IMG/VR virus record: IMGVR_UViG_3300031707_000196 | Location: 1-22,610 of that record | Length of the DNA stretch: 22,610 nucleotides | Reading direction: 5' to 3' (one strand) | Source: a virus | In this document: piece by piece, positions 1-14,467 of the stretch | How the letters are laid out: each line of letters begins with the position of its first letter | How positions within the stretch are numbered: the stretch's first letter is position 1 | The notes under the pieces: generated by a model | Database searches by the model: none | Seen by the model: only the letters and a program-made list of their open reading frames with translations | Told to the model about the DNA's origin: nothing | Made by a program: the position numbers and the translations under genes

Positions 1-219
1 CACAAGATTGGTGATATGGCAGGCAGGTGGACAAACCCTGGTGATTATTACGTGGTTAGAATGAATGATTTACGTTTTCATGCTCATCGTTTAGTGTATT
101 ATTTACGTACTGAAATTGATCCAGGTAATGCTGATGTCGTACATTTACCTGATAACAAAACCAAGGACAATCGACAGGAACTTATCTTACGTGTACGAGG
201 AGGTAAAGAACTATCATGA
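1..219 (+). CDS. HNH endonuclease, C-terminal part (5' end outside window)
   Basis: The reading frame is open from base 1, so the gene begins upstream of the window. The ATG at 16 is probably an internal methionine, because the residues before it (HKIGD) continue the usual HNH_3-type lead-in. The visible piece has the layout of phage HNH_3 endonucleases: a GxYYVVRM strand, then HAHRLVYYL with the conserved His-Arg, then a VVHLPDNKTKDNR segment in the place of the family's VDHIDGNxxNNR metal-binding loop. The second motif is degenerate (VHLPDN rather than DHIDGN), so catalytic activity is uncertain. It would be a site-specific nicking or homing-type DNase. It ends in an ATGA overlap with the next gene, another endonuclease, which suggests co-translation. 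Family assignment is moderate; activity is inference. Confidence 0.6.
   Translation, partial: HKIGDMAGRWTNPGDYYVVRMNDLRFHAHRLVYYLRTEIDPGNADVVHLPDNKTKDNRQELILRVRGGKELS
198..204 (+). promoter_or_regulatory. Strong Shine-Dalgarno for the His-Me endonuclease gene
   Basis: The sequence AGGAGGT lies inside the end of the upstream coding region, about 11 bases before the ATG at 216. It is one of the few near-perfect anti-16S matches in the window, where most genes have weak or no Shine-Dalgarno sequence. It supports the start at 216 despite the ATGA overlap. Confidence 0.6.
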
Positions 220-863
220 ATTATTCTAATTTTAAATACGTTGTTGACATTGATTCTTTATCAGAAAAAGATTTAAATGCACAAGGTTATTACACAGGTT
301 TCCCTTGTGTCCATAATCATGTAATTAGGAATACTACTAACCACTGGTGTTACCACTGTGTTGAAAAAATTATTTCTAATAATTGTGGTTTTAATATAAA
401 TTTTTTACATGCTGATTATCGTTATAAATTTCTACGTCTTTGGGATCAAGTTGATATTGGTAACTGGGAGGAATGCTGGACATATAAAGAGTGTGGTAAT
501 ACAAAAACAAAACGTGTTCAATTTCCATCCTATCGATCTTTCTATCAAGGACAGAAGTCAGAAAATGTATCCGCTCATAAAGTAATATATCAATGCGCCT
601 GGGGTGATGTAGGTAACTTATTTGTTACTCATTTATGTGGTAATAAGCATTGTTTAAATCCTTTACATTTGATGTCTTCTTGGAATCGTGCTAGTCCTCC
701 AGCTAATATCAATCCTTTTCAAATTACTTTTGATGCTGATGCTCTTTTATTATTTGGTAAAACAAAATTTCAAAATAATATTCAAAGTTTATTTAAGAAA
801 GATATGCGATCTACTATTACGCATCCACTAGATGTAACAGAAAATCCAGAGTACAATGAATAA
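216..863 (+). CDS. His-Me finger (I-PpoI-like) homing endonuclease
   Basis: This 215-residue protein carries two zinc-binding regions. The N-terminal one has Cys31, His33, His35, Cys45 and Cys48. The C-terminal one, HLCGNKHCLNPLHLM at about 139-153, closely resembles the active-site and zinc loop of the I-PpoI family: His139 corresponds to the general base, Cys141, Cys146 and His151 to zinc ligands, and Asn157 is a candidate metal ligand. Enzymes of this kind cut DNA and often spread their own gene into related phages. The start at 216 is supported by a strong Shine-Dalgarno and an ATGA overlap with the preceding HNH gene. The central part (residues 70-130) I do not recognise. The family call is good; whether it acts as a homing enzyme is inference. 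Confidence 0.72.
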   Translation: MNYSNFKYVVDIDSLSEKDLNAQGYYTGFPCVHNHVIRNTTNHWCYHCVEKIISNNCGFNINFLHADYRYKFLRLWDQVDIGNWEECWTYKECGNTKTKRVQFPSYRSFYQGQKSENVSAHKVIYQCAWGDVGNLFVTHLCGNKHCLNPLHLMSSWNRASPPANINPFQITFDADALLLFGKTKFQNNIQSLFKKDMRSTITHPLDVTENPEYNE

Positions 864-1801: not shown

Positions 1802-2226
1802 AATCTAAAGTAAAAATAAAAAGAATAAATAATTATATACTAAAAACAAAACTTACCCCTGATATAAAAAATAAAGACAATACATTATGGTTATTTTCTT
1901 TTGCAATAGGAAAAAGTATACATCAAATTAATGATTGGTTAAAGCAACGTAAAAATAAAAGAGCTACAAAATTAACTAATTTACTAACAGGAAAAAATTC
2001 TATTGCTCCGCAAATATTTGCTCTCCGTCAGTTACGTCAATACATAAATGAATTAAAGCAAGGGGATATTATATTTTTTAAATGTGAATCTAAAGAAAAT
2101 ATAAAACAATTTAACGTATGGAAGAAATGGTTTACACGGCGTGAATGTAAAGATTGGATCATAGATGAAAAATATTTATTATTTTATTACATTAAAACTA
2201 AGCAAGCATGCACCACCCAGAGTTAA
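1798..2226 (+). CDS. Hypothetical basic protein
   Basis: The 142-residue protein is very rich in Lys, Arg, Asn and Ile. Its N-terminus is strongly basic and there is a helical middle (residues about 50-90, with QLRQYINELKQGD). It starts within the stop codon of the preceding gene (ATGA), so translational coupling is likely. Its last 29 bases overlap the end of the endolysin gene on the opposite strand. The base composition is more AT-rich than most of the window. I do not recognise a family. The charge suggests nucleic-acid or membrane contact, but this is only inference. Confidence 0.5.
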   Translation: MKSKVKIKRINNYILKTKLTPDIKNKDNTLWLFSFAIGKSIHQINDWLKQRKNKRATKLTNLLTGKNSIAPQIFALRQLRQYINELKQGDIIFFKCESKENIKQFNVWKKWFTRRECKDWIIDEKYLLFYYIKTKQACTTQS

Positions 2227-3304
2227 AACCTTCGATTAGCCATCTAGGGTTGAAATTTTTATAGCTGTAATGCAGGTTCTTACCATTTGTATTTACGTAA
2301 GTTCCAGATATTAAATCAGCTTCTCCCCATGGGTCATTTACCCACCATCCTGTATCGTCATAACCGGTAATACATATCCAATGACCACCACCAGTTGGCC
2401 TTGTAACTAGGCCTTGGTGTAAGAAACCTACCGGTACAGGTTTATTTTTATCAATTTGTTTTTTAATTGTGTCTACATCACCTTTACTATAAAATCTAGC
2501 TTCCACTCCAAATTTAAATAATGCTTTTAACTGGGCTGTACTATCCGTACTATCGCCGTAAGTAAATACAACTTTTATATAATCGTCATCATTTTTAATT
2601 GAGGTAGGTTTTAGATATTTCAACATCATGGCACAACTAGAACTAAAGCATGTTCTACTTGCATCGCGATAATTATCGCGTTGACTCATATATAAAACAG
2701 GTAAGGGATTTACTTTTATTACAGTACCTCCTGGGGTACCTAATTTTGAATCCAATAACTGAATTAATTTTACGGCGTAGCCAGGATCTGTTGCATACCC
2801 TTGTTCTTTGAGTTGAACTGCGGCGGCATTGCGATTGGCTGCGTTATTAACACCTTTGAAGGTTTTGTAATCTTTATACCATCTGTCAACAAGATAGGTA
2901 ATGCAACTCCGTAGGTCAGGAAAATTAACAAAACCATCAGTGATTGTAACCCAAGTGTTGTCAATGAACTCTTGTGTTGTTCTAGTAGATCCTGTTCCTT
3001 TAATTCCAAAATAATTGTATTCGCCTGAAGGATGTTTACCCCAGTTTGACTCTAGTGCCCATTGAGCAGCTACAAGTTCAGGATATTTTGCACCAGCAGA
3101 TTGTGCTGCTGCTACCACGCCATCCCATGTATTATCAAATGTTGGTTTTGGCGGCGTTTCAATGCGGTATTTGACGCCGAAGTCAGCTAACACTTCGGGT
3201 GACAACTGTCTTTGCAGCCAATTCCAAGCCTCTTCTTGATGAGGTAGTTTCTTGTAAAAGGCTGCTGCATCAGCTAACTTAATAAATGCAACAGATTTTG
3301 TCAT
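2198..3304 (-). CDS. Two-domain endolysin: glucosaminidase plus C39-like peptidase
   Basis: This 368-residue protein should break down host peptidoglycan at two kinds of bond. Residues 1-50 form a short helical region. Residues about 57-190 match the mannosyl-glycoprotein endo-beta-N-acetylglucosaminidase (GH73-like) fold, with QWALESNWGKH carrying the likely catalytic Glu85, followed by NYFGIKG. Residues about 200-350 look like a C39-type cysteine peptidase (Peptidase_C39_2): YMSQRDN with an oxyanion Gln208, candidate nucleophile Cys219, GGGHWICITGYDD with His308, and VNDPWG with Asp324. There is no signal peptide, so release probably depends on a holin that I cannot identify for certain. 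Its ATG shares bases with the upstream stop (ATGA). It converges on, and overlaps by 29 bases, the + gene ending at 2226. Confidence 0.82.
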   Translation of the reverse strand: MTKSVAFIKLADAAAFYKKLPHQEEAWNWLQRQLSPEVLADFGVKYRIETPPKPTFDNTWDGVVAAAQSAGAKYPELVAAQWALESNWGKHPSGEYNYFGIKGTGSTRTTQEFIDNTWVTITDGFVNFPDLRSCITYLVDRWYKDYKTFKGVNNAANRNAAAVQLKEQGYATDPGYAVKLIQLLDSKLGTPGGTVIKVNPLPVLYMSQRDNYRDASRTCFSSSCAMMLKYLKPTSIKNDDDYIKVVFTYGDSTDSTAQLKALFKFGVEARFYSKGDVDTIKKQIDKNKPVPVGFLHQGLVTRPTGGGHWICITGYDDTGWWVNDPWGEADLISGTYVNTNGKNLHYSYKNFNPRWLIEGFNSGWCMLA

Positions 3305-4138: not shown

Positions 4139-5794
4139 CTACGCGCCCTTGAGAGCTGCTACTTCGGCTTCAAGGGTTTCGATGCGACCAATGGCTTCTT
4201 GCAACGCTTTGGTCAGCACAGGAATAATGCTCTGGTAGGCAACATTCAAGTGGTTGGTGCCTTGTTGAACAATCCCATCAAGGTAATCCTGTCCCTGCAT
4301 CGCCTCCCGCAGTTCCTGAGCAATGAAGCCTGCCTGTATGGTTTGATCCTGTGAATACTCGGGCTTGTACTCAAACGTGACGGGACGAAGATTTTTGACA
4401 ACATCCAATGATGGTGGCAAGTTGCTGACGTTTTGCTTGATTGATGCGTCAGAGCCGTTTACGTAAGCGCCTTGACCCCACACGCCTGTTCCAAAACACT
4501 GAAGGTTGTAAGAGCCTTGGCTCGTAGACGTGCCAACTAACAGTCTCCCAGAGGTGTCGATGCGGGCTTTTTCACTGCTGTTTAAATTAAACGTAAAGTC
4601 ACCAGTGTTAGTGTTATCTCTTCCAATTTCCCAATAGTTGGTTCCACCGTCATCACTGAATCTTAATGCTCCTCTAGAGCCACTACCCCCACCAGCCACA
4701 TGAAGTTTTGAACTAACTGTAGTAGTGCCAATCCCTAAAAGCCCTGCCGAAGTAAGAACAGCCTTGGCGGTTGAAGAGTTGTTTGTGTAAAACTTAATTC
4801 CACCGCCTGCGTCCGTGTAAATCGCTGCATCATCGGATGATGTTCCAGTGACCCAACTATCTACACAGAAAATTGCTTTCTGAACACCGTTGCGATAAGC
4901 GCGGAACGCCCCGCCGCCGGTAGCAGCAGAGTTGTCGGCAATCACGCCTGCATAGGTGCTACCACCTTTGACGTGAAGGATGTCGCCAGGGCTAGAAGTT
5001 CCCAGACCTAATTTCCCTCCGGAATCTATAAAGAAGCTGTTAGCTGGTGCGCTTTGGTTAACGCTAAATGCAGGACTACTGCCAGCAGTACCAGCACCCT
5101 TGATTTCAAACAGGCCATCAGCGCGGATGCGGGCTTTTTCACTGCTATTCGTAAAAAACTTTACGGGGTGATTTGTTGATGTTCCAAAATCAAAGCGGCC
5201 ATCTCCATAGCCCGCAATAAATCCTCTAACAGTTGCGTCAGAGTTTCCAAGATAAATAACACCCCCGTTGCCAGTAGTGCTTCCACGAATATCAAGTGTT
5301 GAACCGTAATTAAGGGAGTCTACTGGAGAGCCAATTCCAACCCCAACATTTCCACTGGCATTAACGAACACTCTCCCAGTACCATTAGTTGAGATGGCTA
5401 GTTCGTCTGCACCAGAGGAATATATGCCTGTGTTTGGATCTGAAAGTATGGCTAGTGACGGGAGTGCGGCTGTACCACTAGCAATAATGCCAGATGTAAA
5501 GGTTGCCGTAATACCGGTTAATGAAGTAAATGTACCAGTTGCACCAGATATGCTGGTAGTAAAGACGCCAGTTGCGCCGGTTATTGTTTGAAAATTAGCG
5601 TTTGTTCCAGAGGTTGTTACACCGGTTAAGCTTGTAAAACTACCGTAGGTTCCTTGAACAGTAGTTCCTGAAACAGTTCCTGTAACAGTTAAATTACCTG
5701 ATATAGAGGCAATGATACCAGAAACAGAAATAGTTTGATCTACACTGTTGTTGGTAAAAGTAACTGTATCAACTTTGATAACACCGTAAGACAT
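4139..5794 (-). CDS. Tail fibre with C-terminal S74 intramolecular chaperone
   Basis: This 551-residue protein is the likely receptor-binding fibre. Residues 1-25 (MSYGVIKVDTVTFTNNSVDQ) resemble the virion-anchoring N-terminus of cyanophage fibres. Residues about 30-105 are a Thr/Ser/Gly-rich repeat of strands (SGATGTFTSLTG-like units) expected to form a trimeric beta-prism or helix. The middle carries repeats including NSSEKARI at 216-223 and again at 405-412. The C-terminal 104 residues match the peptidase S74 (endosialidase chaperone) domain: Ser448-Asp449 and Lys453 fit the SDxxxK self-cleavage motif, followed by RPVTFEYKPE, GFIAQEL and a terminal coiled coil (EAIGRIETLEAEVAALK). In the family the chaperone trims itself off after trimer assembly. 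Its start follows a 106-base AT-rich leader. The second half looks richer in GC than its neighbours, which suggests mosaic exchange. Confidence 0.85.
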   Translation of the reverse strand: MSYGVIKVDTVTFTNNSVDQTISVSGIIASISGNLTVTGTVSGTTVQGTYGSFTSLTGVTTSGTNANFQTITGATGVFTTSISGATGTFTSLTGITATFTSGIIASGTAALPSLAILSDPNTGIYSSGADELAISTNGTGRVFVNASGNVGVGIGSPVDSLNYGSTLDIRGSTTGNGGVIYLGNSDATVRGFIAGYGDGRFDFGTSTNHPVKFFTNSSEKARIRADGLFEIKGAGTAGSSPAFSVNQSAPANSFFIDSGGKLGLGTSSPGDILHVKGGSTYAGVIADNSAATGGGAFRAYRNGVQKAIFCVDSWVTGTSSDDAAIYTDAGGGIKFYTNNSSTAKAVLTSAGLLGIGTTTVSSKLHVAGGGSGSRGALRFSDDGGTNYWEIGRDNTNTGDFTFNLNSSEKARIDTSGRLLVGTSTSQGSYNLQCFGTGVWGQGAYVNGSDASIKQNVSNLPPSLDVVKNLRPVTFEYKPEYSQDQTIQAGFIAQELREAMQGQDYLDGIVQQGTNHLNVAYQSIIPVLTKALQEAIGRIETLEAEVAALKGA

Positions 5795-7120: not shown

Positions 7121-7585
7121 ATGTCACATTTGATAAAAGATTTAGATGTAACAACAATCACTCCTGAGAACTATTCTCAATTATTGCCGAGTGTGTTGAT
7201 TAGACAAGTGGAAAGTTTTTTGCCTCCTCTTGGTTCTTTTGATATCGGATGCTTACAACGTTATCTAGCAAATATCCGAGATTATGAAGAGGAGGACGCA
7301 AATTCAAGTATGACTCTTGCTAATCGATTGCGATTAGCTTTTGTTGATATGCAACCAGATACGATTTGTGGTCGCTTTCCACAAGCTGAATTATCTTTGA
7401 AACGACGTTTACGTTGCGTGGCAGAATACTTGATAAGAGCTAAGGAATTTGATAAAGTAAAAGATGATAACGGTCAACTGATAAAAAAACGTGGTGTCAT
7501 CGGTAAGATGGTGTGTGTATACCAGCCTTTACCTAAATTACTAGATGTTTTACAGAAACAAAACTTTATCCAACCACCAACCTAA
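7121..7585 (+). CDS. Hypothetical protein in nucleic-acid cassette
   Basis: This 155-residue protein is mostly helical, with a charged core (ANRLRLAFVD, SLKRRLRCVAEYLIRAKEFDKV). There is no signal peptide, membrane segment or motif that I recognise. I chose the ATG at 7121, one base after the upstream stop, because it gives a natural N-terminus (MSHLIKDLDV). An ATG at 7091 is open too and would overlap the upstream gene by 29 bases. Its stop overlaps the next start (TAATG), so it is probably co-expressed with the Dam-like protein and may work with it, but that is inference. Confidence 0.5.
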   Translation: MSHLIKDLDVTTITPENYSQLLPSVLIRQVESFLPPLGSFDIGCLQRYLANIRDYEEEDANSSMTLANRLRLAFVDMQPDTICGRFPQAELSLKRRLRCVAEYLIRAKEFDKVKDDNGQLIKKRGVIGKMVCVYQPLPKLLDVLQKQNFIQPPT

Positions 7586-8169
7586 TGGCATTAAATTTAA
7601 ATTTACGCAATGAAGATCAAGAGCTTATTACAAATCCTGATTTAGTAGCATCAGCGCATGCCCTGTTAGGTGAGATTGATTTAGATCCAGCTAGTTCTAA
7701 CTTAGCTAATACGTATGTTGGTGCCTCTCATTATTACACTCCACAAGATGACGGTTTAAATGATGCGGATTGGTACGGAAAGGTATATGTATTTCCACCA
7801 AGTGGATCTTATTTTTTTAATAAACAATTAAATAAATGGAAAATGACCAGGACAAGTGCGGGCACAATAACATCAGCGCATGCAGTTTGGTACCACCGTT
7901 TATATCGCGCCTGGTTAAATAATGAAATTGAACAAGGTTTATTCTTTACAAATTGCCCTGATATGATTCGATACGAACAAAAAATCTTTGACTTCCCTGT
8001 GTGTATTCTTAAAACACCTCCTGAATTAATTAAGAATTCAAGTAGAGGACTGAGTAAACATCGTACATGCACCTCGTTAGCAGTCTACTTACAACCAAAG
8101 GATTCTCCAGGAGAAGCAACAGAAAGATTTATAGATATCTATGCCGAAAAAGGACGTATTCTTTGCTAG
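7585..8169 (+). CDS. Dam-like phage N6-adenine methyltransferase family protein, altered catalytic motif
   Basis: The 194-residue protein matches the phage Dam family (PF05869-like). It has EIDLDPASSNLAN near residues 30-42, ASHYYTPQDDGL at 47-58 and then DWYGKVYVFPPSG. Family enzymes transfer a methyl group from S-adenosylmethionine to adenine N6, using an NPPY or DPPY motif at this last position. Here the motif reads FPPS (about 70-73), so both the catalytic Asn/Asp and the aromatic residue are missing. The C-terminal half (AVWYHRLYRAWL, FFTNCPDM, FDFPVCILKTPPEL) is intact and does not look decayed. It may be a catalytically dead DNA-binding protein or an enzyme with changed chemistry. It sits directly before dCTP deaminase and overlaps the preceding gene by one base. 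Confidence 0.65.
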   Translation: MALNLNLRNEDQELITNPDLVASAHALLGEIDLDPASSNLANTYVGASHYYTPQDDGLNDADWYGKVYVFPPSGSYFFNKQLNKWKMTRTSAGTITSAHAVWYHRLYRAWLNNEIEQGLFFTNCPDMIRYEQKIFDFPVCILKTPPELIKNSSRGLSKHRTCTSLAVYLQPKDSPGEATERFIDIYAEKGRILC

Positions 8170-9742: not shown

Positions 9743-9933
9743 GTAATGTTGATCACCCTATTCATTATACTCAGGGGAGTATTGAGTGTATTGATGCAAT
9801 AGAAGCTGCTTTAACCCCTGAAGAATTCAGAGGTTACTGCAAAGGTAATGCATTTAAATATATTTGGCGCGAACAATATAAAGGCCAAGATGAATCTATT
9901 GATAAAGCAAGTTGGTATTTAGGACGAATTTAG
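9616..9933 (+). CDS. DUF3310 protein with unusual N-terminal extension
   Basis: Residues about 45-105 are a clear DUF3310 domain: NVDHPIHYTQGSIECIDAIE, then FRGYCKGNAFKYIWR and KASWYLGRI. DUF3310 proteins are common in phages and are sometimes labelled nucleotide kinase-like, but their function is not settled. The domain stops right at its end without the usual short tail. Only one start codon is available in frame, the ATG at 9616, which adds about 44 residues (Ser-, Gly- and Arg-rich) encoded out of frame within the upstream gene. This stretch looks unlike a conserved domain. It may be real, or a sign of a frameshifted fusion. The stop overlaps by four bases (TTAG) the stop of the opposite NblA-like gene. 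Confidence 0.72.
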   Translation: MSGQCSNESESSGSNWIYPQHGRSCRDGRDSFTEGLGTEGLLSNVDHPIHYTQGSIECIDAIEAALTPEEFRGYCKGNAFKYIWREQYKGQDESIDKASWYLGRI

Positions 9934-10247
9934 AATGGTGCCAAGAGACGAGGATCGTCATCTTCGTCTTCATCTTCGTCTTCATAGTCTCCTGTCGAGC
10001 GAGCTAATTCTTCTAGTTCTAATTCTGTTGAAATATCAAATTGAATATTCACTCCTTCTTCAGCAAGCAATTCTTTAATTGCAGTAATTTCAATAAAACG
10101 TTGCTGGTAAAGGTTAAGGAAAGCACCATATAATTGATCCCACGTCATCTCGTCAGCATAAATTTGTGCTTTGCGCATTGCAAATTCAAACTCCAAGGGG
10201 AGTTCAAGATCTTTAGGTTCAGCAGAAGGATCCATTAGGAACTGCAT
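9930..10247 (-). CDS. NblA-like phycobilisome degradation protein with acidic tail
   Basis: The 105-residue protein has a two-helix core at residues about 14-68: LELPLEFEFAMRKAQIYADE, then MTWDQLYGAFLNLYQQRFIE, then ITAIKELLAEEGV. Set against my memory of the NblA consensus (LxLEQEFxLRxFExQV, MSREQA, LYRQMMxR, YKELLK) it lines up without gaps, sharing LExEF, R, M, Q, LYxQ and KELL. NblA is a small dimer that binds phycobiliproteins and hands them to Clp protease; some freshwater cyanophages carry it to free amino acids from the host antenna. This version is longer than host NblA (about 60 residues) because of a C-terminal extension ending in a run of Glu and Asp (about 87-98). The match is from memory and modest, so another helical-hairpin family is possible. 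It sits next to a lysozyme gene. Confidence 0.5.
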   Translation of the reverse strand: MQFLMDPSAEPKDLELPLEFEFAMRKAQIYADEMTWDQLYGAFLNLYQQRFIEITAIKELLAEEGVNIQFDISTELELEELARSTGDYEDEDEDEDDDPRLLAPF

Positions 10248-10273: not shown

Positions 10274-10942
10274 TTACACCATGATTTCATCCTGTTGAAA
10301 AGCAGGTAATTTAAAAGCATTAATAAATTCTGCAAGTATTACAGGAGGAGTAGCTTGTTCTAGTTTCTTGATAGCTTGGATTTGATTTGGTAAGGACTCA
10401 TAACACATAAAGGCGTTTAACAAAAGCAAGCCGTTAAAATCAAGGCTTTTATTTTGGATACCGATTAAAAATAAATTAATTTCTTCTCGCCTTCTATAAA
10501 TCAGATTACTTATTACCTGGTAATCATGGTCAAAAATCCAACGGTACATTGTTTCTGTAACGATGCCCCATTCTTCTAAATCGATTGCATCAAGGATATC
10601 GCTATAAAGAAAGGGGTCCCAGCCGATAGAATGTACAAAAGAAATTAATGCTTCCTTAATATTTTTATGTAGCCCTGGTATTTCATTATCTAATAAGGTA
10701 TTGATTTCTTGCACTTCATACTGTAAATATTCCAGCGCTTTTTCTCTGGTACATAATTGATCTTTACCTACAGGTTCACCGTCAGGATAATATTGCGTCC
10801 CATACCCTATTGTATACGGCCTCGAATTAGTAATAGGATCTGCAAAAGACTTTTCATTAAAGCCTTCATACTTCATTATGATATCAATTCCTAAAGGTAG
10901 ATTCTGCATGATGAAAGTAATCATATTACCATCATCATACAT
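10274..10942 (-). CDS. GH24 (T4-type) lysozyme
   Basis: The 222-residue protein matches phage lysozymes of glycoside hydrolase family 24, which cut the MurNAc-GlcNAc bond of peptidoglycan. MKYEGF carries Glu26, ADPITNSRPYTIGYGT carries Asp35 and Thr44, and the Glu-to-Asp spacing of nine residues equals that of T4 lysozyme (Glu11, Asp20, Thr26). Further family marks are LHKNIKEALISFVHSIG at about 90-106 and RRREEINLF near 150-158. The last 60 residues are an extra helical domain of unknown use. There is no signal peptide. It is the second of three cell-wall hydrolases in the window. The first ATG is used; ATG at codon 7 is an alternative start. Confidence 0.82.
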   Translation of the reverse strand: MYDDGNMITFIMQNLPLGIDIIMKYEGFNEKSFADPITNSRPYTIGYGTQYYPDGEPVGKDQLCTREKALEYLQYEVQEINTLLDNEIPGLHKNIKEALISFVHSIGWDPFLYSDILDAIDLEEWGIVTETMYRWIFDHDYQVISNLIYRRREEINLFLIGIQNKSLDFNGLLLLNAFMCYESLPNQIQAIKKLEQATPPVILAEFINAFKLPAFQQDEIMV

Positions 10943-11418: not shown

Positions 11419-14102
11419 TATTTTTTAAAGAAGGAAGTGTAGTCACCAAGGAAAGAATCAGCGTCGATTGATGACGTTTCATTGTCATCTTCTTCATCTT
11501 CGTCATCATCTGTACCTATTTTAAAGTAAGAATTTGTTTTTGTTTTAGTAGATATTTTAGGAGGAGGAGAATCAATATCAGTGATTTTAGATAACATTTC
11601 AAAAGGATCTTTACTTTTTAAAAAGTCTATATCTAATTCAGGCATTTTCCCCTTGGTCACATCAGATAATAATTTAACATCACTAGGATCTGCATCAGGC
11701 ATATAATCTGTATAAAATTCTTTTTCTGTTCCTTTATAACCGACTGATTTAAAAGTATTATATAATTCAGTTTTTGCTGTTGTTGTATCTGCATCTTCTG
11801 AGCGTTCGATATAAGATACACCTAACTCTCTTTGCGTAGGAGTTTCATCTTCTTCTTGTAATGTTTTAATTTTATTCCTTATTTCTGCTGCTGTATCTGT
11901 TTTGATAGCATTAATAATCGTATCTTTTAAATCCTCAAATCCTGTATCTTTACTAAGATTATATTGTTTTAATAATTCTTGATATTGAGGTTTATCCTTA
12001 AAAGGATCTATACCTTTTAATAAAAGATCAGCAAATCCTTCTGGTGTTATAAATTCACCAAAAACAGTACCTAAAGATTGGGCTCTTATGTTAACAGGTG
12101 CTTCCAGCTCTGCTTTCAGTGTTGATCCAGGATCTAAGTTGGCATCTAAGTTGGCATCTTTTCCGATAATTTGATAATGTAATCTTGCAAATTCTCCTTT
12201 ATCTCCTAAATTAATTTTATATAATTCAGCATTTTGTGCCCACGTTCCAAGGGCTGGCACCTTTTCGTTGATAAAAGTATTTGGTTCTTTTCTAGCTGTA
12301 TTCCAATCTTGCTCAATAATTATTTTTTGTTGTTTATAGTTTTCTTGTTTAAGTTCTGTTGTGTAAGGATCCTTTGGATCAAAATAAAAATCAGGATTAA
12401 ACTGTACGTTTCGTGCTTCATCTCCTAAAGTTGAAGTTAAGTCTTTAGCTACTGCACGTGTATAATTTTTAACAGTTTCTAAACGGTCTGTAGTTTGAAA
12501 AGGATTTTTATTTTTTTCATCCACATTCATGTAATCAATAAATTCACTCATTGATTTTGAATAATCAAAACGAGGCTTTAAATATTTATCAATAAAATCA
12601 CGTGCAAAACCAGAATCAATTTCAACTTCTTCCGGTATGCTACTTCCACTTGTAAAGGTTAAATTTAAGTTACGATCTTTATTTGTTTCTAATGTTTTTA
12701 CTTTTTCTTGTAACGTACCTTTCATTGTTTCTAACTTAGTTTTATCAGTGCCACTGTTTTGTAAATCATTTAATAAAGAAGATCCAGATTCTTTTTGAGC
12801 TTCAAGAAATTTAAAAAGTTCTTCACTTGTTTTAAATCCTGCTTCTTTTATAAATGTATCTTTAAATTTATTATTTGTTTTATCATAAATGTCATCAGGT
12901 TTAGTTTTTATTGCTGCATTGATAACATCAAGAGTATCTTCTGTTGCATCAAACTCTTTATAATCAATACCATATTTATTAGTTAATGTATCATCAAACC
13001 ATTTCTGCCAATTATATGTAACATTATTTTGTAGTCCTGTAATAGAACCAAGTTGTTTTTCTAATCCTTCAGTAAGATCTTTTTCTGATTTGTTTCCTGT
13101 TAAAGGAAGAAATCCCCCTACACTAATATCTCCTATCATCGAGCTAGAAAGGGTTTTATTGAGATCTGCTATTTCAGAAAACCCTTCCAATCCACGATAT
13201 AAATCCCATTCTTGTTCTTTTGCTTTTATTTTATTTAACTCATCTACTGTATCTTTCAATACATTTTGTACTAATACACCATATTTTTTCACTTCTTCTT
13301 TTTCTTTAGGACCTAAAATTTTGTTTAATAATTTAGTGAAACTAGCAGAAGGTTTTTTTGTTTCATCTGTTTCATCTGCAATATCTCTTAATTCTTGCTT
13401 TTCACTATCAAGTAGTGTTTCTTTATAGTCAGTGGTTTTTGTTGTAGGGTCTTCTTTATACGCACGTATACCATTTTGTTGTCCTTGTGTGGAATAATGC
13501 CAATTAAAATAATCTTTTTCAGAACCATAACGTGCAAGGATATCAAGATCATCATTTTTAAAGGCTTCGTCCCATGCAGCAGCAGCAGCAGGAGCTTGTG
13601 TTTTATAATATTCAACTTCTAATTTTTTTAATCCATCTGGTGATGAAGGTTTAATAATTTTTGTAACATCAAAAGGAGTTACTTTTTCTGTCTTATAAAA
13701 ATCTTTAAAGTTAGCTTCTATATCTGTAATTATTTTAGGATCAATACCTAAGTCTCTGATGCGTTTTCTTTGCGCTATGTAATCCTGCCCCATGGTGGAA
13801 GTTACGATTGTAGGACTGGTAGGAGTACCGTCAACAACTTTATCGTAGGCTTCATTTATTTTAATATTTGCTTCATTCAATGCTTTGTCATCAACTTCAA
13901 CTTGTTTACTTTTTGTTACCTTTTTAGGAGCTGTGTAGTATTCTTCTCCTTCTTTATGATATTTACCTACAGCATCCCAGCCAGCTGTAGTAGTTTTTTG
14001 TGCTTCCACTACTTCGTAATCCTGTGTTTCAACTTTTGTATTATTTGTTTCCTCGTGAACTTTATACCATTTTTTTTCTTTTGCATTATATGTAAGAGCC
14101 AT
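11418..14102 (-). CDS. Large charged protein, possible internal virion or structural protein
   Basis: This 894-residue protein is the largest in the window. It is hydrophilic throughout, rich in Lys, Asp, Glu and Thr, with long stretches of likely helix and coiled coil and no membrane span. It opens with MALTYNAKEKKWYKVHEET, which may be a small folded unit, and ends with an acidic cluster (DDDEDEEDDNE) followed by SFLGDYTSFFKK. I find no enzyme motif. A 12-base tandem repeat near 12130-12160 encodes DANLDANLD. Its size and position next to HNH and DUF6321-like genes suggest a virion-internal or tail component, but it lacks the hydrophobic stretches of a typical tape measure. It starts in the stop of the HNH gene (TGATG). 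I do not recognise the family. Confidence 0.5.
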   Translation of the reverse strand: MALTYNAKEKKWYKVHEETNNTKVETQDYEVVEAQKTTTAGWDAVGKYHKEGEEYYTAPKKVTKSKQVEVDDKALNEANIKINEAYDKVVDGTPTSPTIVTSTMGQDYIAQRKRIRDLGIDPKIITDIEANFKDFYKTEKVTPFDVTKIIKPSSPDGLKKLEVEYYKTQAPAAAAAWDEAFKNDDLDILARYGSEKDYFNWHYSTQGQQNGIRAYKEDPTTKTTDYKETLLDSEKQELRDIADETDETKKPSASFTKLLNKILGPKEKEEVKKYGVLVQNVLKDTVDELNKIKAKEQEWDLYRGLEGFSEIADLNKTLSSSMIGDISVGGFLPLTGNKSEKDLTEGLEKQLGSITGLQNNVTYNWQKWFDDTLTNKYGIDYKEFDATEDTLDVINAAIKTKPDDIYDKTNNKFKDTFIKEAGFKTSEELFKFLEAQKESGSSLLNDLQNSGTDKTKLETMKGTLQEKVKTLETNKDRNLNLTFTSGSSIPEEVEIDSGFARDFIDKYLKPRFDYSKSMSEFIDYMNVDEKNKNPFQTTDRLETVKNYTRAVAKDLTSTLGDEARNVQFNPDFYFDPKDPYTTELKQENYKQQKIIIEQDWNTARKEPNTFINEKVPALGTWAQNAELYKINLGDKGEFARLHYQIIGKDANLDANLDPGSTLKAELEAPVNIRAQSLGTVFGEFITPEGFADLLLKGIDPFKDKPQYQELLKQYNLSKDTGFEDLKDTIINAIKTDTAAEIRNKIKTLQEEDETPTQRELGVSYIERSEDADTTTAKTELYNTFKSVGYKGTEKEFYTDYMPDADPSDVKLLSDVTKGKMPELDIDFLKSKDPFEMLSKITDIDSPPPKISTKTKTNSYFKIGTDDDEDEEDDNETSSIDADSFLGDYTSFFKK

Positions 14103-14467
14103 CAGTTTATTTTTTGATTTATATATTCATTAGTGTACTGGAAAAGATCTAGTAATTCTTGGTTTATCCAATCTTTAATTTTTTCTAACCGTTGATAACA
14201 AAAAAAATCTTGTGTTAAATACCATTCTTCCATTTTAGTACTACCTTTATGATTATTGCACCGTTGACAAGAAGGCATTAGATTATTTCGATTACTAGAA
14301 CCTGATCTAAATCTAGGTATTATATGATCCAGGCTTGTGGCTGGGTTACCGCAATAACCACAGGAGTACTCCCAGGATTTATATATTTCATCTCGAAAGC
14401 GGCGCTTTGCATGCTTAGGTGTTATTTCAATTAATAAGGCGAGAGGATCATGCTCTGTTGCGAACAT
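14102..14467 (-). CDS. HNH endonuclease
   Basis: The 121-residue protein has a full zinc-supported HNH core: SCGYCG with Cys36 and Cys39, SLDHIIPRFRSG with Asp47 and His48, SNRNNLMPSCQRCNNHKGS with the Asn cluster, Cys67, Cys70 and His73. Such enzymes nick or cut DNA, and stand-alone phage copies may act in packaging or as selfish elements. All metal and zinc residues appear intact. It lies directly upstream of the 894-residue gene with a one-base stop/start overlap, so it may be a recent insert into the operon or part of it. It begins 137 bases from the + regulator gene. Confidence 0.85.
   Translation of the reverse strand: MFATEHDPLALLIEITPKHAKRRFRDEIYKSWEYSCGYCGNPATSLDHIIPRFRSGSSNRNNLMPSCQRCNNHKGSTKMEEWYLTQDFFCYQRLEKIKDWINQELLDLFQYTNEYINQKIN

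Follow-up and report, generated by a model that had tools for sequence, protein, structure and literature searches.

A divergent NblA-like protein with a conserved acidic, phenylalanine-terminated extension in S-EIV1-type cyanophages

Cyanophages of the S-EIV1 type encode a divergent homolog of NblA, the small homodimeric protein that forms a four-helix bundle and tags the light-harvesting antenna for destruction. Here, we describe this protein from a viral fragment of 22,610 nucleotides (IMG/VR record IMGVR_UViG_3300031707_000196; hereafter ‘the window’, meaning the whole stretch analysed). We consider it on balance probable that the protein is an NblA-type adaptor, fixed in the S-EIV1 lineage and equipped with an added C-terminal docking arm, that would serve to dismantle the antenna of the host.

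NblA works with ClpC (PMC7966870), and loss of phycobilisomes has been reported as an effect of other cyanophage NblAs (PMC9602691; see also PMC5780444 for the antenna loss on which our analogy is based). The phage NblA homologs compared here (MaMV-DC/Ma-LMM01, PaV-LD, and Nodularia phage 2AV2) are tailless proteins of 54–65 aa. In tblastn searches against phages, a 51-residue NblA query gave no match, and a longer query recovered these known phage NblAs. The S-EIV1 lineage is widespread, according to the title of Chenard 2015, and the group is given as 3.3% of marine cyanophage abundance by Nishimura et al., whose table lists hli and ptoX and no nblA for it (PMC5332604). We found no link between S-EIV1 and nblA in the literature searched; Chenard et al. 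2015 or Nadel et al. 2019 may mention the gene.

Results

Gene, neighbourhood, and conservation

The window is a fragment of an S-EIV1-type cyanophage: the genes in its 22.6 kb are ordered locally as in Synechococcus phage S-EIV1, in which lysozyme is followed by the NblA-like gene and, further along, by dCTP deaminase. The features considered here are the following.

9930..10247, minus strand: complete gene of 105 aa (ATG, TAA) for a divergent NblA homolog with a C-terminal extension (open reading frame, S-EIV1 ortholog, IMG/VR family, dN/dS)
10062..10205, minus strand: NblA-homologous core, residues 15–62 (Pfam alignment, 48 ungapped HHalign columns, helices 18–32 and 36–63)
10002..10040, minus strand: third conserved segment, residues 70–82 (family pattern FDxPTxLELxELA), not in NblA (column counts, 100 distinct sequences)
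9954..9989, minus strand: acidic run, residues 87–98 (translation; acidic in all relatives listed; predicted disordered)
9933..9947, minus strand: LLAPF at the C-terminal tip, its Phe (residue 105) being invariant (100/100 distinct sequences)
10274..10942, minus strand: phage lysozyme gene directly upstream of the NblA-like gene (PF00959, E = 6.3e-13; 184/184 loci)

The 105-aa translation is MQFLMDPSAEPKDLELPLEFEFAMRKAQIYADEMTWDQLYGAFLNLYQQRFIEITAIKELLAEEGVNIQFDISTELELEELARSTGDYEDEDEDEDDDPRLLAPF. Between the lysozyme gene and the start of the NblA-like gene, both on the minus strand, lie 26 nt. The NblA-like gene also shares 4 nt with the end of a convergent DUF3310 gene. A sequence-only reading of the window had proposed both this open reading frame and the adjoining lysozyme gene, and both proposals hold. 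Relatives in IMG/VR and in S-EIV1 (AHV82245.1, annotated as ‘hypothetical protein’; tblastn E = 2e-23), together with purifying selection on the core (NG86 dN/dS median 0.12 over the 20 usable pairs, most pairs being too divergent for use), indicate a real gene rather than a chance reading frame. Scans around the gene yielded promoter candidates at chance level only and terminator candidates at about chance level.

Relatives of the NblA-like protein are encoded in 328 and at least 554 IMG/VR stretches (two alignment-based scans). Thirty large S-EIV1-like records of 66 kb or more were drawn from loci found via the SSB gene only, with an alignment query used instead of a single-sequence query that had given 6 loci; 29 of them contain the NblA-like gene, in one copy each. 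The sole exception (77.7 kb) has no match to the neighbouring lysozyme either, the block as a whole being absent, replaced, or located beyond the fragment. Wherever upstream sequence is sufficient (184/184 loci), the gene immediately upstream, in the same orientation, is lysozyme. The NblA-like gene is a conserved, syntenic core gene of the S-EIV1 lineage.

Homology to NblA

For the window protein by itself, NblA homology is undecided on sequence comparison. Residues 15–62 align with positions 1–48 of the 50-position Pfam NblA profile PF04485 at 16.7 bits (E = 0.01), which fails the curated cut-off of 25 bits and is counted against the NblA-type adaptor; the best PDB match is NblA 1ojh, at E = 0.074, and an NblA HMM built here scores the protein at 9.1 bits, a value that shuffled sequences also attain (maximum 12.9 among 4537 shuffles scored). 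Matches to phrog_9509 (E = 0.031) and to NCBIfam are at chance level.

It is the family-level evidence that settles the homology. Pfam NblA is matched by every one of the 28 family members scanned, with a best E of 4.4e-6; other weak Pfam matches (DUF4030, PHF12) involve fewer members and are weaker than NblA. Aligned by HHalign with 79 distinct host NblA rows, the phage family reaches 96.2% for the whole protein and 96.7% for the core over 48 ungapped columns. The score is 46.5; the highest among 200 column shuffles is 17.5, and the reversed control scores 11.1. Searched against the PDB, the core profile retrieves NblA 1ojh at E = 5.6e-5, the next match standing at 0.56; a ClpA N-domain match (E = 1.1) is at chance level. 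In the reciprocal direction, the phage profile finds 103 places at E ≤ 0.01 in 291 cyanobacterial genomes, of which at least 91 coincide with PF04485 matches listed from an earlier search, and three loci checked among the remaining places all contain NblA ORFs. By these profile comparisons, the family is a divergent, tail-bearing subfamily related to NblA, not canonical NblA. The sequence-only reading had put the window protein forward as a putative NblA with an ungapped alignment over a 55-residue core, and had named a significant PF04485 match over residues 14–68 as the support to look for; the alignment was recovered close to that range, and the identification and the profile match stand for the family and not for the window protein alone.

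The cyanobacterial genomes also encode very divergent short NblA-like proteins of the type MSDLPVEKQFTHMVFCQQIQNIDLDAAKQLLADLHMLYLGQQ (seven examples), partly below the Pfam cut-off yet recruited by the iterated NblA HMM, which are possibly a second NblA-like family.

The core and its departures from host NblA

The AlphaFold model of the core, computed with 33 relatives, has a pLDDT of 87 and two helices (window protein residues 18–32 and 36–63), which agrees with the two-helix core proposed earlier and places the short helix, loop, and long helix of the NblA pattern at high confidence. Foldseek was uninformative, finding no NblA with the full model against the PDB and BFVD or with the core against the PDB, and this is counted against the adaptor. 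Common to the phage protein and cyanobacterial NblA (PF04485; 1ojh) are the 48-column ungapped core, the two helices, and the E-L-x-L-E-x-Q-F-x-x-R, M, LY, Q, and L positions, and the NblA-shared residues L16, F22, R25, L46, and Y47 are invariant in the phage family.

The two differ in length (about 60 residues in cyanobacterial NblA, 105 in the phage protein), the phage protein adding the third conserved segment and the acidic arm with its terminal Phe, and they differ within the core as well. Among 27 columns conserved in at least 70% of host rows, 13 are the same in the phage-family consensus and 11 in the window protein, and this low sharing (13/27) is likewise counted against an NblA-type adaptor. 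At column 48, 99% of host NblA rows have Lys or Arg, whereas the window protein and 68% of family members have Ala. The matching residue in Anabaena NblA is Lys53, which is located where the long helix ends and reportedly takes part in phycobilisome binding. At several apparent packing positions the residue differs from that of host NblA (F to A, V to A, A to L, and F to A); Trp36 occurs in every member of the phage family but is not invariant in hosts.

The C-terminal extension

The extension consists, in order, of the FDxPTxLELxELA segment, an acidic stretch of variable length, and the chain end. Within the third segment, E77, L78, and L81 are present in all 100 distinct sequences, and a third helix (residues 75–89) is predicted at low confidence; the acidic run is predicted to be disordered (pLDDT below 50). 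The last residue is Phe in 100/100 distinct sequences from 190 loci (77 ending PF, 19 VF, 3 IF, and 1 FF); the sequences being related, these are not 100 independent events. The codon of this Phe varies (TTC in 64, TTT in 36), which argues for selection on the residue itself. The tail is without counterpart in the host NblA ORFs examined and in the phage NblAs of MaMV-DC (65 aa), PaV-LD (54 aa), and Nodularia phage 2AV2 (58 aa). The sequence-only reading had described a polyacidic tail, foreign to host NblA and running out in Glu and Asp. Its acidic run and the absence of a host counterpart were confirmed; the window protein, however, ends in PRLLAPF, and the reading had missed what is most conserved in the extension, namely the FDxPTxLELxELA segment and the unvarying Phe at the terminus.

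A comparable chain end is known from SSB: its C-terminal tip, in which acidic residues precede a terminal Phe, is a docking site for proteins of replication and repair. The phage tail has the same disordered acidic stretch leading to Phe, mostly Pro-Phe, as the SSB tip (DDDIPF type in E. coli; terminal Phe in T7 gp2.5), with the acidic stretch and the terminal Phe at a free C-terminus in 100/100 distinct sequences; unlike SSB, it sits on an NblA-like core rather than an OB fold, and its penultimate Pro, present in the window protein, is not universal (77/100). No OB-fold DNA-binding domain was found, the core being helical, with no strands and no SSB family match. The SSBs of these phages themselves end in PF in 79 of 80 cases. 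In the parts of S-EIV1 scanned, the only ATG-initiated ORFs of at least 80 aa ending in PF, VF, or IF are SSB, the NblA-like protein, and one unannotated ORF. Co-variation of the tail tip with the SSB tip of the same phage was not seen. Host SSB tips in small-genome cyanobacteria vary strongly, some being EIPF or EEPF and others, which lack the usual Pro-Phe, EEDDIG, EEEADL, or VPEM.

Other genes in the window

A 368-aa product (2198–3304, minus strand) combines a glucosaminidase domain (PF01832, E = 6.5e-18) with a C39-like peptidase domain (PF13529, E = 6.4e-11) and is, on these matches, a possible second cell-wall enzyme besides the lysozyme. The N-terminal part of the product of 7585–8169 (plus strand) matches phage DNA methyltransferases (phrog_111, E = 5e-10, residues 11–72) and has FPPSG at the usual position of the methyltransferase motif; enzymes of this kind usually have a D/NPPY-type motif, and the product may be a changed or inactive methylase. 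There are two HNH-type endonuclease genes, at 14102–14467 (minus strand; PF01844, E = 3e-11) and at 216–863 (plus strand; a weak HNH_3 match, E = 1e-4, below the cut-off). A repetitive 551-aa protein (4139–5794, minus strand) carries a C-terminal peptidase S74 chaperone domain (PF13884, E = 3e-11), a domain found in self-cleaving tail fibres.

Discussion

Under the explanation that we favour, the NblA-like two-helix core, established by homology and prediction, most likely dimerises as NblA does, and the dimer would bind host phycobiliproteins in the manner of NblA; the missing Lys/Arg weakens both propositions. The conservation of the tail suggests that the arm would then link the cargo-bearing adaptor with a second partner, for instance a Clp unfoldase, the contact being made by the acidic stretch and the free terminal Phe. 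Judging from other cyanophage NblAs, the outcome would be antenna loss during the lytic cycle, and gene order suggests expression together with the lysozyme and structural genes. The position beside lysozyme is nonetheless counted against an antenna adaptor, since the nblA genes of MaMV-DC and PaV-LD adjoin nucleotide-metabolism genes. Because 23% of the tails are without the penultimate Pro and many small-genome cyanobacterial SSBs are without a PF end, we read the tail as a docking arm whose partner would have a pocket for a terminal Phe; this partner could be a Clp unfoldase, a protein of replication or repair, or a phage protein. A more specific version, which we put forward tentatively, is a two-sided adaptor in which an NblA core and an SSB-type acidic-Phe arm would wire antenna destruction, by way of a terminal-Phe pocket, to a replication/repair protein or to a Clp unfoldase; in the literature searched, such a combination is not described for any NblA.

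Alternatively, the tail could mimic the SSB tip and dock in the SSB pocket of replication/repair or phage replication proteins, recruiting or blocking them, with the core serving mainly as a dimeric scaffold and not as an antenna adaptor. The invariant Phe behind an acidic stretch, the PF ends of the phages' own SSBs, the rarity of PF, VF, and IF ends in the scanned S-EIV1 sequence, and the loss of the host-conserved NblA Lys would all fit such mimicry. We nevertheless regard it as doubtful, since 23 of the 100 sequences, some of them from phages with an SSB ending in PPF, are without the penultimate Pro, a PF end is absent from many small-genome cyanobacterial SSBs, and the acidic run exceeds an SSB tip in length.

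It is also conceivable, and in our judgement unlikely, that the NblA fold was kept and its function lost, the product being a late or virion-associated protein, lysis-related or structural, that is co-expressed with the lysozyme. The fact that the gene strictly follows lysozyme, where the structural-gene block ends, would suit this account, as would the changed packing positions and the missing Lys/Arg, but the invariance of the core residues shared with NblA argues against it. A protein unrelated to NblA, resembling it by chance as one set of short helices may resemble another, is very unlikely and already disfavoured. The weak score of the window protein alone and the nature of NblA as a short helical family would allow for it; the family-level and reciprocal searches, however, score far higher than the controls made by shuffling and reversal, and the reverse search of cyanobacterial genomes selects NblA loci in preference to other helical proteins; chance similarity is rejected on these grounds as the source of the family-level match.

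If the favoured adaptor has true NblA function, then the dismantling of the antenna would be a fixed rather than an optional part of the S-EIV1 cycle, the gene being present in nearly every large record. The invariant acidic-Phe tail would in that case offer a concrete, mutable handle on the coupling of an NblA adaptor to a second partner.
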